DNA of 64,000 nucleotides from Clostridia bacterium (GTDB taxonomy: Bacteria; Bacillota; Clostridia; Christensenellales; Aristaeellaceae), in assembly GCA_017429695.1 (NCBI GenBank), contig JAFROK010000050.1, positions 32,952 through 96,951 of the forward strand, given 5' to 3'. The stretch's first letter is position 1, and each line of letters starts with the position of its first letter. Under the pieces are notes generated by a model. The model had not been told where the DNA came from. It was given only the letters and a program-made list of their open reading frames with translations, and ran no database searches. Shown here piece by piece: positions 55,979-58,373 of the stretch. A program made the translations under genes and the position numbers.

Positions 55979-56012
55979 AGACAACTTTACGTATGTCTCT
56001 ACGGAACGTAGG

Positions 56013-56042
56013 TTGCCTGAAACAACCATCCGCTGCTATGCT
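56013..56042 (+). promoter_or_regulatory. Promoter of the XRE-desulfoferrodoxin regulator gene
   Basis: TTGCCT (56013-56018) and TATGCT (56037-56042), spacing 18, ending 23 bases before the start codon. Upstream, CAACTTTACGT (55982-55992) and ACGTAGGTTG (56006-56015) form an imperfect inverted repeat overlapping the -35, a possible autoregulatory operator. Confidence 0.5.
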
Positions 56043-56065: not shown

Positions 56066-56665
56066 ATGGACCATTATGTAACAGGTGCAACGATCAGGAC
56101 GCTGCGGGAAAAATACCGGATGACGCAGGCCGAACTGGCGGAGCGGCTTTGCGTGAGCGATAAGGCGGTTTCCAAATGGGAAACGGGACGCGGATTTCCG
56201 GATGTATCCCTGCTGGAGCCGCTGGGAAAGGCGCTGCATGTTTCTGTTCCGGAACTGCTGTGCGGGCAGACGGTCGTCAACAAAAACAGGGCAGCCAACA
56301 TGCTGAAAAGCCTGTTCTATATCTGCCCTGTCTGCGGGAATGTGCTGTTTGCCAGAGGAGACGCACTGATCTCCTGCTGCGGAATTCAGCTTCCGGCGCT
56401 GGAAGCAGAGGAGCCGGACAATGCGCACCGGGTGAATGTTCAGCGGGTGGAAGATGAAATATATGTTTCTTCGGATCACTCCATGGGAAAAGATCATTAT
56501 CTGTCATTTGTGGTATATATGACACCTGACCGCTGCGAAACCATCGTGCTGTATCCGGAAGGAAACGCGGAGGCAAGATTCTTCTATCGCGGAACAGGCT
56601 GGCTGTATTATTATTGCAATCAGCATGGCCTGTTCCGGCAGAAGGTCAGCCGTGCTAAATGCTAA
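56066..56665 (+). CDS. XRE-family regulator fused to a desulfoferrodoxin-like domain
   Basis: A 199-residue protein. Residues 7-60 are a Cro/CI helix-turn-helix (RMTQAELAERLCVSDKAVSKWE). From residue 80 to the end the chain aligns by eye with complete class I desulfoferrodoxin. The N-terminal desulforedoxin-like centre uses Cys87, Cys90, Cys104 and Cys105 (CPVCG...CCG). The superoxide reductase-type iron site has His121, His138, His144, Cys184 and His187 (HSMGKDH and CNQHG), with spacings close to Dfx. The residues before the first His, Glu-Lys in the enzyme, are Asn119-Ala120 here, so a sensor role is more likely than efficient catalysis. GGAG lies 9 bases before the ATG. It probably controls genes by oxygen, superoxide or redox state, perhaps the adjacent hydrogenase. 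Confidence 0.88.
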   Translation: MDHYVTGATIRTLREKYRMTQAELAERLCVSDKAVSKWETGRGFPDVSLLEPLGKALHVSVPELLCGQTVVNKNRAANMLKSLFYICPVCGNVLFARGDALISCCGIQLPALEAEEPDNAHRVNVQRVEDEIYVSSDHSMGKDHYLSFVVYMTPDRCETIVLYPEGNAEARFFYRGTGWLYYYCNQHGLFRQKVSRAKC

Positions 56666-56679
56666 ACAGGCAGTTCAAG

Positions 56680-56712
56680 CAAAATCGGCTCACGTATGAT
56701 GAGCCGATTTTG
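56680..56712. terminator. Bidirectional terminator between regulator and hydrogenase genes
   Basis: Perfect 13-bp inverted repeat CAAAATCGGCTCA / TGAGCCGATTTTG (56680-56692 and 56700-56712) with a 7-base loop; A/T runs at both ends serve both convergent genes. Confidence 0.88.
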
Positions 56713-56766
56713 TAATATCTGACTGATGGCTGATCCCTTTTACATGACAAGATCAGCATGAATCAA

Positions 56767-58290
56767 TCAACGGTCCGCAAATTCTTGTTTCTGCAGCTGG
56801 GGAGGGATTTCTTCCGGATGAATTTCGCCGTCCCGGTGCACGGAGAATTCCGCCATCGGGTATTTTTTCAGGTTGTCCAGAACTTTCCGGTCATCTGCAT
56901 GGCTCAGCAGATCCGCCCGAGCTTTCAGCACAAGATTTTCTGCCTGATGTTTGGAAGGGCCCCCGATGCAGCCTCCCGGGCAGACCATGCCTTCCACGAA
57001 GTCCGCATCCAGCTTTCCTGCGTTCAGCAGCATCATGGCCTTTTTGCATTCATCGCCGCCGGCACAGGTCATCAGCCGGATTCCGGAGGTATCCTCGCCC
57101 ATTTCATCCATGACTTCCAGAACTGCTTTGGCTACGCCGCCGCTGCCGGCAAAGCGCTTACCGAAGAGGGAAGCCTCCTGATAATCCTCTTCAGTTGGTT
57201 CAACAGTTATTCCCCTGGACTCCAGAAGCGCAACAATCTCTCCATAAGTTAAAGCATAATCTGCACGGTCTGCAATGAGTTCGTTCAGAGTCTCGCCTTT
57301 TTTGGCAATGCAGGGTCCGATGAACACGGTGACGCAGTCCGGGTCCAGATGCTTCAGATAGCGGGAAACCGCCACCATGGGGGACACGGTGCCGGATTTG
57401 TTGTTTTCGTAGACTTTGGGGAAATGATGGTGAAGCATCGAGATAAAGGCAGGACAGCAGGATGTGGTCATCACTTTCCCCTCCCTGCGGGCGTGAATCC
57501 ACTCCATCGCCTCAAAGGCGGCGGTCATATCTCCGCCGAGGCCTACCTCCACCATGTCGGCGAAACCGGCCTTTTTCAGGGCGGCCCGGACAGAAGCCAT
57601 GCCGGCCTGACTGCCAAACTGGCCTTCAGTGGCCGGAGCGCACATGGCGATTACCTTTTTGCCGGCCTGAATGGCGCGAATCACATCCACAGCGAAAATC
57701 TTTGAACCGATGGCACCGAAGGGGCAGTTATGGATACAGTGACCGCAGTGGATACACTTTTCCTCATCGATCCGGCAGATGCCGGCTTCGTCATAGAAAA
57801 TTGCGCCGACAGGGCAGGCTTTTTTACAGGGACGCTCCTGGTGGATGATGGCGCCGTAGGGACAAGACTTTGCGCACAGGCCGCAGGATTTGCACTTGGT
57901 GGGATCAATGTGCATTTTGGAATCGCCGGGGGATATGGCGCCGAACCGGCAGACGTTCAGGCAGGCTTTTCCCAGGCAGAAACGGCAGATGTCGGAAACA
58001 AAGTAATCCTGGATCGAACAGTCGTCACAGGCGGCCGGAATGACAGCCACCACATTGTCTGTCAGATGGGCCGGATCCGGATACTGCCCCATGGCCAGGC
58101 GGATCCGGCCCCGGACGATTTCACGTTCCTTATAGACGCAGCAGCGGTACTTTGGTTTGGGACCGGGGCTGACATCATAGACGATTTTCTCGGTGCTTTC
58201 CTGGGTCAGCTTGTTCTCCCAGGCAAGGCGGCAAACTTCCCGCAGAATAAAATGCTTGAGTTCAACAATCCCCTTGTCATTGGTGATCAT
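56767..58290 (-). CDS. [FeFe]-hydrogenase, group B-like, with multiple 4Fe-4S clusters
   Basis: A 507-residue single-subunit hydrogenase. The N-terminal half has a Cys-rich segment (CDDCSIQDYF) followed by ferredoxin-type motifs CKSCGLCAKSC, CKKACPVGAI and CIHCGHCIHNC, giving several 4Fe-4S clusters. The catalytic half has the three H-cluster motifs TSCCPAF, GPCIAKKGE and MVCPGGCIGGP with all binding cysteines kept. The GPCIAKK form and GGCIGGP ending match group B enzymes of anaerobes, whose role (H2 evolution or sensing) is poorly known. ATG 58290 follows AAGGAGAGCG at about 12 bases; GTG 58299 is the alternative. Its neighbour is the redox-sensing regulator at 56066. Confidence 0.92.
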   Translation of the reverse strand: MITNDKGIVELKHFILREVCRLAWENKLTQESTEKIVYDVSPGPKPKYRCCVYKEREIVRGRIRLAMGQYPDPAHLTDNVVAVIPAACDDCSIQDYFVSDICRFCLGKACLNVCRFGAISPGDSKMHIDPTKCKSCGLCAKSCPYGAIIHQERPCKKACPVGAIFYDEAGICRIDEEKCIHCGHCIHNCPFGAIGSKIFAVDVIRAIQAGKKVIAMCAPATEGQFGSQAGMASVRAALKKAGFADMVEVGLGGDMTAAFEAMEWIHARREGKVMTTSCCPAFISMLHHHFPKVYENNKSGTVSPMVAVSRYLKHLDPDCVTVFIGPCIAKKGETLNELIADRADYALTYGEIVALLESRGITVEPTEEDYQEASLFGKRFAGSGGVAKAVLEVMDEMGEDTSGIRLMTCAGGDECKKAMMLLNAGKLDADFVEGMVCPGGCIGGPSKHQAENLVLKARADLLSHADDRKVLDNLKKYPMAEFSVHRDGEIHPEEIPPQLQKQEFADR

Positions 58291-58373
58291 GTTATCCACG
58301 CTCTCCTTTTTTTCTTTTCCCGGTGATCCGGCAATATCATACCACAATCAGACCTGTCGAGGAATGTGCCCGG

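Follow-up and report, generated by a model that had tools for sequence, protein, structure and literature searches.

The window, a stretch of 64,000 nucleotides of a Clostridia bacterium, carries a gene whose product joins a DNA-binding head to a domain resembling the iron enzyme superoxide reductase (SOR). We name it DFXR, for helix-turn-helix (HTH)-desulfoferrodoxin regulator. Sequence comparison and structure prediction confirm DFXR as a P22-c2-like XRE HTH joined to a complete desulfoferrodoxin (Dfx)-like domain with all nine metal ligands. Our preferred reading, to which we assign a probability of roughly 0.55, is that DFXR is an autoregulated one-component sensor of redox state or oxygen species that controls itself and, in many relatives, a flavoprotein of the iron-sulfur flavoprotein (ISF) type. 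We regard sensing of oxidation or oxygen species as the best reading because a ligand-complete, lysine-free SOR site is found in a putative autoregulator tied to an ISF-type flavoprotein. The gene and its parts are:

56066..56665, plus strand: DFXR, the HTH-desulfoferrodoxin regulator gene (open reading frame and translation, domain matches, relatives, AF2/Foldseek)
56093..56257, plus strand: XRE/HTH_3 DNA-binding domain, residues 10-64 (Pfam HTH_3, 43.9 bits against a cutoff of 23; Foldseek 3jxb)
56315..56383, plus strand: desulforedoxin-like Cys4 site, residues 84-106, with C87, C90, C104 and C105 (alignment with SORs)
56420..56638, plus strand: SOR-like site, residues 119-191, with H121, H138, H144, C184 and H187 (alignment with SORs)

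The open reading frame comprises 600 bases from an ATG start and encodes 199 amino acids; the closest relatives in our scan of genome contigs reach 89% identity. In the AF2 model (pLDDT 87.2, pTM 0.66) the HTH superposes on 3jxb, the P22 c2 repressor with operator (Foldseek TM by target 0.88, rmsd 1.4), and the nine top Foldseek matches of the model are all Dfx or SOR proteins (TM by target 0.72-0.80). The Dfx/SOR matches include 2ji2, 1vzg, 1dfx and the T. pallidum SOR 1y07, and phmmer relates the protein to PDB 2ji2 at E 1.2e-6. The Dfx-like region spans residues 84-191 and scores below the cutoffs of the enzyme-family profiles, with 17.4 bits against 22.2 for Desulfoferrodox PF01880 (residues 128-192) and 35.3 against 146.9 for TIGR00320 (E 1.1e-8); several DFXR relatives, unlike the window protein, pass the PF01880 cutoff. 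An earlier sequence-only reading of this DNA had recognised an XRE HTH, four cysteines and a five-ligand iron site with near-enzyme spacing, and had expected a Dfx-like structure. Domain matches, alignment and ligand spacing bear out the former, and the Foldseek result agrees with the latter at the level of the fold.

The four cysteines align with those of Dfx and make up the CX2C...CC signature of the desulforedoxin (Dx) module of proteins of the HTH-Dx-SOR class, in which, as here, an HTH is N-terminal; the other five residues align with the ligands of SOR active centre II. Successive spacings within the latter site are H-H 17, H-H 6, H-C 40 and C-H 3, compared with 20, 6, 41 and 3 in the D. 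baarsii SOR, whose ligands we take to be numbered 49/69/75/116/119. The cysteine motif of the window protein, CX2C-X13-CC, compares with CXXCX15CC as given in the available text of SORGOdb (PMC3116461).

To follow these residues through the family we used 84 sequences (81 distinct, with three repeats), made up of 51 loci from the scan of genome contigs, 32 sequences from further genomes and the window. The 51 are those among 70 scanned loci with a match extending into the Dfx domain; 18 others match the HTH only and one (L064) is a fragment. Two members, the truncated L055 and a methyltransferase-like fusion (L057), lie outside alignment A1 and inside the 84, and of the 38 loci L113-L150, six gave no open reading frame under a filter requiring KWE and one Dfx-like motif. 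Groups A and B were separated by a text motif, and L118, whose start is misplaced, landed in B. The fusion L057 (L057:6001-7446) belongs to group B; this HTH-Dfx protein has 481 amino acids and a C-terminal part that by eye resembles a class I SAM-dependent methyltransferase. For comparison with enzymes, 31 SOR loci were taken (the 30 best of the family sample and the window genome's own), 29 of which yielded an open reading frame under a filter that required HxM...H and CxxHG, not Glu-Lys.

The ligands are conserved throughout this set. C87, C90 and C104 are found in 84/84 members and C105 in 80/84, with His in the remaining four; H138 and H144 are likewise invariant (84/84), H121 is present in 77/84, C184 in 83/84 and H187 in 77/84, one sequence being truncated before both of the last two. 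In a conservation ranking of all 113 columns across the 81 distinct Dfx regions, the columns of the nine ligands take ranks 1, 3, 4, 5, 6, 8, 18, 23 and 25, so that six fall within the eight most conserved, and all nine ligands are present in 66 of the 81. The window domain is just 23-32% identical to the 29 SORs in the comparison. Since the ligand columns are among the most conserved while overall identity to SORs is low, the ligand match is more than chance.

Variation at the ligands bears on a different reading, in which DFXR reports metal availability through reversible Fe or Zn binding, with occupancy rather than redox state governing DNA binding. H121 is absent from 6/15 group B members, which counts against the sensor reading in that the full iron site is dispensable in some members, and Asp stands at the H187 position in 5/84. 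Both departures, together with a Cys4 site whose three invariant cysteines are among the most constant parts of the domain, would suit a metal sensor. We nevertheless consider this reading quite unlikely, because DFXR has as its recurrent partner a redox flavoprotein rather than a transporter (see below).

The clearest departure from the enzymes lies immediately before the first His ligand. N119-A120 occupy the place of the enzyme's Glu-Lys in the window protein, as the sequence-only reading had noted. Lys directly before the first His occurs in 0/84 DFXR members and in 29/29 extracted stand-alone SORs, and Glu at position -2 in 44/84 and 29/29, respectively. The motif EKH-V/L-P is complete in 29/29 extracted enzymes, compared with Glu at the lysine position in 37 of the 84 DFXR members and Pro in only three. 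A second difference lies between the second and third His, where position 142 (K142 in the window) is Lys or Arg in 84/84 members, and in the extracted enzymes is Glu or Asp in 22/29 and Lys or Arg in 0/29. The earlier view that residues needed for turnover have been lost therefore holds for the lysine family-wide, but the "Glu-Lys pair" has not been lost as one unit, since the glutamate is retained in about half of the members. Nor does loss of the lysine prove loss of turnover: the Foldseek matches include a PDB entry titled neelaredoxin T24K, from Ignicoccus hospitalis, and this title implies that a natural lysine-free SOR, with Thr at the residue mutated to Lys, seems to exist.

The main rival to the sensor reading builds on this point. 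DFXR could be a working SOR in control of its own expression, with the HTH setting the amount of the Dfx enzyme and the flavoprotein serving as its electron donor or partner. The retention of nine ligands in most distinct members fits such an enzyme, as does the I. hospitalis entry. The uniform EKH-V/L-P of the extracted enzymes and its breakdown in DFXR speak against it, and the window genome retains a separate, normal one-iron SOR of 112 amino acids with EKHVP (L079:1492-1830, minus strand). Across a sample of 100 genomes of the family, with stand-alone SORs called by PF01880 at E under 1e-10, 13 genomes hold both DFXR and an SOR, 28 DFXR only, 24 an SOR only and 35 neither (p 0.40). This lack of significant association led us to reject DFXR as a dedicated regulator of the stand-alone SOR, and, running in neither direction, it gives the self-regulating enzyme no help. 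That 28/41 DFXR genomes lack a strong stand-alone SOR match is, however, what a DFXR enzyme would lead one to expect, and the rival survives because of these genomes and because a lysine-free SOR seems to exist. We judge it unlikely overall.

Upstream of the gene, a conserved palindrome adjoins a putative promoter:

55998..56016, plus strand: predicted operator TCTACGGAACGTAGGTTGC, palindrome CTACG-N3-CGTAG reaching into the -35 (conserved across family promoters)
56013..56042, plus strand: putative promoter, -35 TTGCCT at 56013-56018, 18-bp spacer, -10 TATGCT at 56037-56042 (position and column conservation)

The region 55982-56042, which the sequence-only reading had suspected to be a DNA-binding site, thus contains the operator. 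The promoter is absent from the output of a generic scan. The consensus operator TCYACGnAnCGTAGGTTGC precedes the DFXR gene in 62/84 members at up to three mismatches, and is found in 61/81 distinct upstreams compared with 0.05% of shuffled upstreams. The pattern was derived from the first-scan loci and the window; it is also matched in 18 of the 32 remaining sequences, one of these 18 being a repeat. Family upstreams follow the order TCYACGnAnCGTAGG, TTG, 17 bases and TATnCT, with TG one base ahead of the -10 in about three quarters; the window spacer is 18 bp against 17 bp in this alignment consensus. Taking the -10 to end at -7 puts the centre of the palindrome near -43. Operator and the approximately 17-bp promoter geometry are found in Bacillota and Spirochaetota members alike.

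Genome-wide searches suggest that the operator marks few other promoters, within patterns that weaker sites could escape and with sites classed as "own" from their sequence or position. Across 43 genomes the full pattern matched 42 times, in 38 of them, with 37 matches at DFXR's own promoter and 5 elsewhere, against 10 for the reversed control. When the pattern was loosened and run on 44 genomes, 29 matches were exact, all own by sequence, and 18 had one mismatch, 7 of them own, against 37 in the control. Non-own matches thus number 5 versus 10 and 11 versus 37, and in the 100 genomes 8 versus 14, with a pattern that skips the window's own site owing to its 18-bp spacer. The window genome itself has its own site and one three-mismatch site (L081), with one in the control. 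A large regulon is therefore unsupported, and the near confinement of full-match sites to DFXR's own promoter is also compatible with the self-regulating enzyme. Seven non-own sites were inspected: one precedes a second DFXR gene, two are promoters of one flavoprotein family and four lie in or among unrelated genes. Two more from the 100-genome search precede a flavocytochrome-like gene (L212) and a transporter gene (L216), both kinds being assigned by eye. In genome G005 a second DFXR copy under its own operator (L181:942-1610) occupies a separate contig and could be either a paralogue or a contaminant of the bin.

The operator is not specific to DFXR. It also precedes the own genes of 8/18 HTH-only XRE loci and of one further locus (L232). 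These XRE regulators (L059-L063, L066, L067, L076 and L232) have a related HTH, other C-termini and the same CTACG-N3-CGTAG with promoter, and their sequences suggest that they form a modular autoregulated subfamily. Some operator sites could accordingly belong to paralogues. The shared operator also indicates that operator use is independent of the Dfx domain, and so lends something to the view that this domain is a structural or dimerisation remnant that senses nothing, DFXR acting by plain autorepression. We find this very unlikely, given that a remnant would hardly keep six of nine ligand columns among the eight most conserved at such low identity to the enzymes, and given the operon link to an ISF-type flavoprotein.

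This flavoprotein, of about 226 amino acids, matches FMN_red and Flavodoxin_2 (Pfam, four entries, two being the same gene). The cysteine motif CX2CX2CX6-7C is present in 39/42 flavoprotein loci, namely those with an open reading frame under a filter that itself required CxGCxxC; the other three are L195, read separately, L264 and L266. The compact motif and flavodoxin-type fold, by motif and Pfam only, agree with those of ISF, for which the available text of PMC3164229 gives CX2CX2CX5-7C; among 17 PDB sequences found by the flavoprotein profile, none is named ISF. At E 1e-40 the flavoprotein occurs in 18/41 DFXR genomes of the 100-genome family sample and in 11/59 others (one-sided Fisher p 0.006, kinship of genomes ignored), which leaves 23/41 DFXR genomes without it at this threshold.

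In 8/18 family-sample genomes with both genes the flavoprotein lies less than 1 kb downstream of DFXR on the same strand, with 15-737 bases between matches, and in four loci (L250, L251, L253 and L254) the stop and start of the two genes overlap. One flavoprotein (L247) was found on reading to have no DFXR alongside and is left out of the linked count. In another genome the flavoprotein follows DFXR by about 200 bases (L195), and a scan of 90 loci added a Treponema MAG in which the two genes overlap (L047) and a genome of another bacterial family in which operator and flavoprotein are followed five bases on by DFXR (L117). Among 29 flavoprotein genes read in DFXR genomes (26 distinct), five unlinked ones are under the operator at up to three mismatches (L188, L197, L198, L200 and L240), and by eye each has a -10 at a distance of 17 bp; among those read in genomes without DFXR, 0/10 are under the operator. 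The window genome's flavoprotein (L194, contig C47) is unlinked, and no operator was seen there, the best match having five mismatches. These comparisons make the DFXR-flavoprotein pairing strong in the family, with neither linkage nor operator in the window's own genome. Supplying electrons to a self-regulating SOR would also be a fitting role for an FMN/Fe-S partner.

Downstream, the gene converges on a [FeFe]-hydrogenase-like gene (window positions 56767-58347, minus strand) across a strong stem-loop:

56679..56713, strand not assigned: stem-loop AAAATCGGCTCA...TGAGCCGATTTT, between the convergent regulator and hydrogenase genes (ViennaRNA fold)

The stem-loop (MFE -21.3 kcal/mol over 56676-56720) is absent from the output of a pattern-based scan and is probably a terminator. 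The sequence-only reading had seen the oxygen-sensitive hydrogenase as a relevant neighbour. A relative adjoins the regulator in just one other of 52 loci (L047, 36% identity, just upstream), so we reject the link and consider the adjoining hydrogenase probably incidental. Once clusters c0-c2 are set aside, which hold the gene itself, HTH paralogues and frames shifted or antisense over the gene, no neighbour cluster occurs in more than five of these 52 loci, neighbour genes being crude longest-ORF picks. In Monoglobus pectinilyticus a ZIP metal transporter lies 100 bp downstream of a group B HTH-Dfx gene whose annotation reads helix-turn-helix protein (L268:3986-5387). The metal-availability reading would welcome such a neighbour, but the case is single.

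An open ferrous site can bind NO. DFXR could on this ground be a sensor of nitric oxide or nitrosative stress, with NO bound at its ferrous His4Cys site and with nitro compounds or derivatives of NO as substrates of the flavoprotein; loss of the lysine may also make the site less suited to an anion such as superoxide. No NO-handling gene recurs among the neighbours of the 52 loci, and we give this reading very little credence.

DFXR is found in Clostridia of rumen and gut, in Oscillibacter ruminantium (strain GH1 has a member, L021), and in spirochaetes, Treponema among them. At E 1e-25 it is present in 31/398 genomes of the phylum and 41/100 of the family, the window genome being in both counts. 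In a tree of 58 rows, spirochaete members fall inside Bacillota rows and at least two label changes are forced, a nesting that makes transfer of DFXR between phyla likely. An origin in mobile elements was rejected, as 80% of the query is covered in just 2/295 matching plasmid records (one "plasmid" being 2.6 Mb) and 1/19 matching phage records.

Returning to the oxygen-species sensor that we prefer, the family comparisons indicate that DFXR proteins are probably iron-based oxygen-stress sensors, and the following sequence of events can be proposed. Sequence establishes the domains, the conserved ligands, the missing lysine, the operator and, in relatives, the genetic linkage to the flavoprotein; that iron occupies the sites, that the protein binds as a dimer, what it senses and whether it activates or represses are inferences. 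A P22-c2-like HTH dimer would bind CTACG-N3-CGTAG near -43 at the promoter of DFXR itself and, in many relatives, also at the one driving the ISF-type flavoprotein gene. The Dfx domain, with its Cys4 and His4Cys sites and no superoxide-steering lysine, would report oxidation of the iron or binding of small oxygen or nitrogen species, and this signal would alter the output of a small regulon consisting of DFXR itself and the flavoprotein. The operator of lambda CI at PRM lies just upstream of the -35. By analogy with this position, activation by DFXR is slightly favoured over repression; repression, via occlusion of sigma region 4, fits nearly as well.

A bolder form of the sensor reading, which we put forward tentatively, is that an SOR iron site now serves as a sensor. 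Loss of the lysine would leave the ferrous His4Cys site open, and a rubredoxin-like Cys4 site would connect it to the DNA-binding head; a protein of this build might detect oxygen species directly and switch a two-gene, horizontally spread defence unit of regulator and ISF flavoprotein in anaerobes of two phyla. If DFXR is indeed a sensor, the SOR iron site would join the short list of transcription-controlling metal sites. Oxygen sensing without OxyR or SoxR is poorly known, a point made for T. denticola in the available text of PMC12724145, and for strict anaerobes lacking these regulators DFXR offers a compact, testable candidate with a ligand set, a predicted operator and a candidate target.

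Taken together, the earlier interpretation is partly supported; novelty of the design is not. The architecture has been known since 2011, when SORGOdb named the class HTH-Dx-SOR (Lucchetti-Miganeh et al. 2011, PMC3116461), whose 19 proteins, like DFXR, place an N-terminal HTH ahead of the desulforedoxin-SOR module; the likeness is one of domain order. In its available text SORGOdb files these proteins as superoxide reductases by that order, without remarks on an operator, a regulon or loss of the lysine. In the open-licence literature, judged from titles and abstract openings, we found no functional study of an HTH-desulfoferrodoxin protein, and the operator, the family-wide lysine loss and the flavoprotein link appear unreported within the literature searched. 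TrtA of Treponema denticola, an oxygen-response regulator, resembles DFXR in being XRE-type and spirochaete-borne. By the available description (PMC12724145) it has 104 amino acids and nothing recognised past residue 81, making it another type of protein, and we rejected it as a characterised homologue on length and domain content.

With ISF, the comparison by motif and Pfam extends to the partner gene, which shares the FMN_red/Flavodoxin_2 matches and the compact cysteine motif. ISF was reportedly the subject of a paper by Cruz and Ferry in 2006 dealing with oxygen and hydrogen peroxide. With desulfoferrodoxin or 2Fe-SOR (PF01880 and PF06397, TIGR00320; 2ji1, 1dfx, 1vzg and 1y07) DFXR shares both metal sites, by alignment, and the predicted fold, and differs in its extra HTH, the missing EKH-V/L-P, K142, shorter loops and, for the window protein, sub-cutoff scores. 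P22 c2 and the XRE autorepressors are not known to carry a metal domain. DFXR shares with them the HTH fold, 37-38% identity over 64-67 columns and an operator at its own promoter, and differs in that this operator sits just upstream of the -35.
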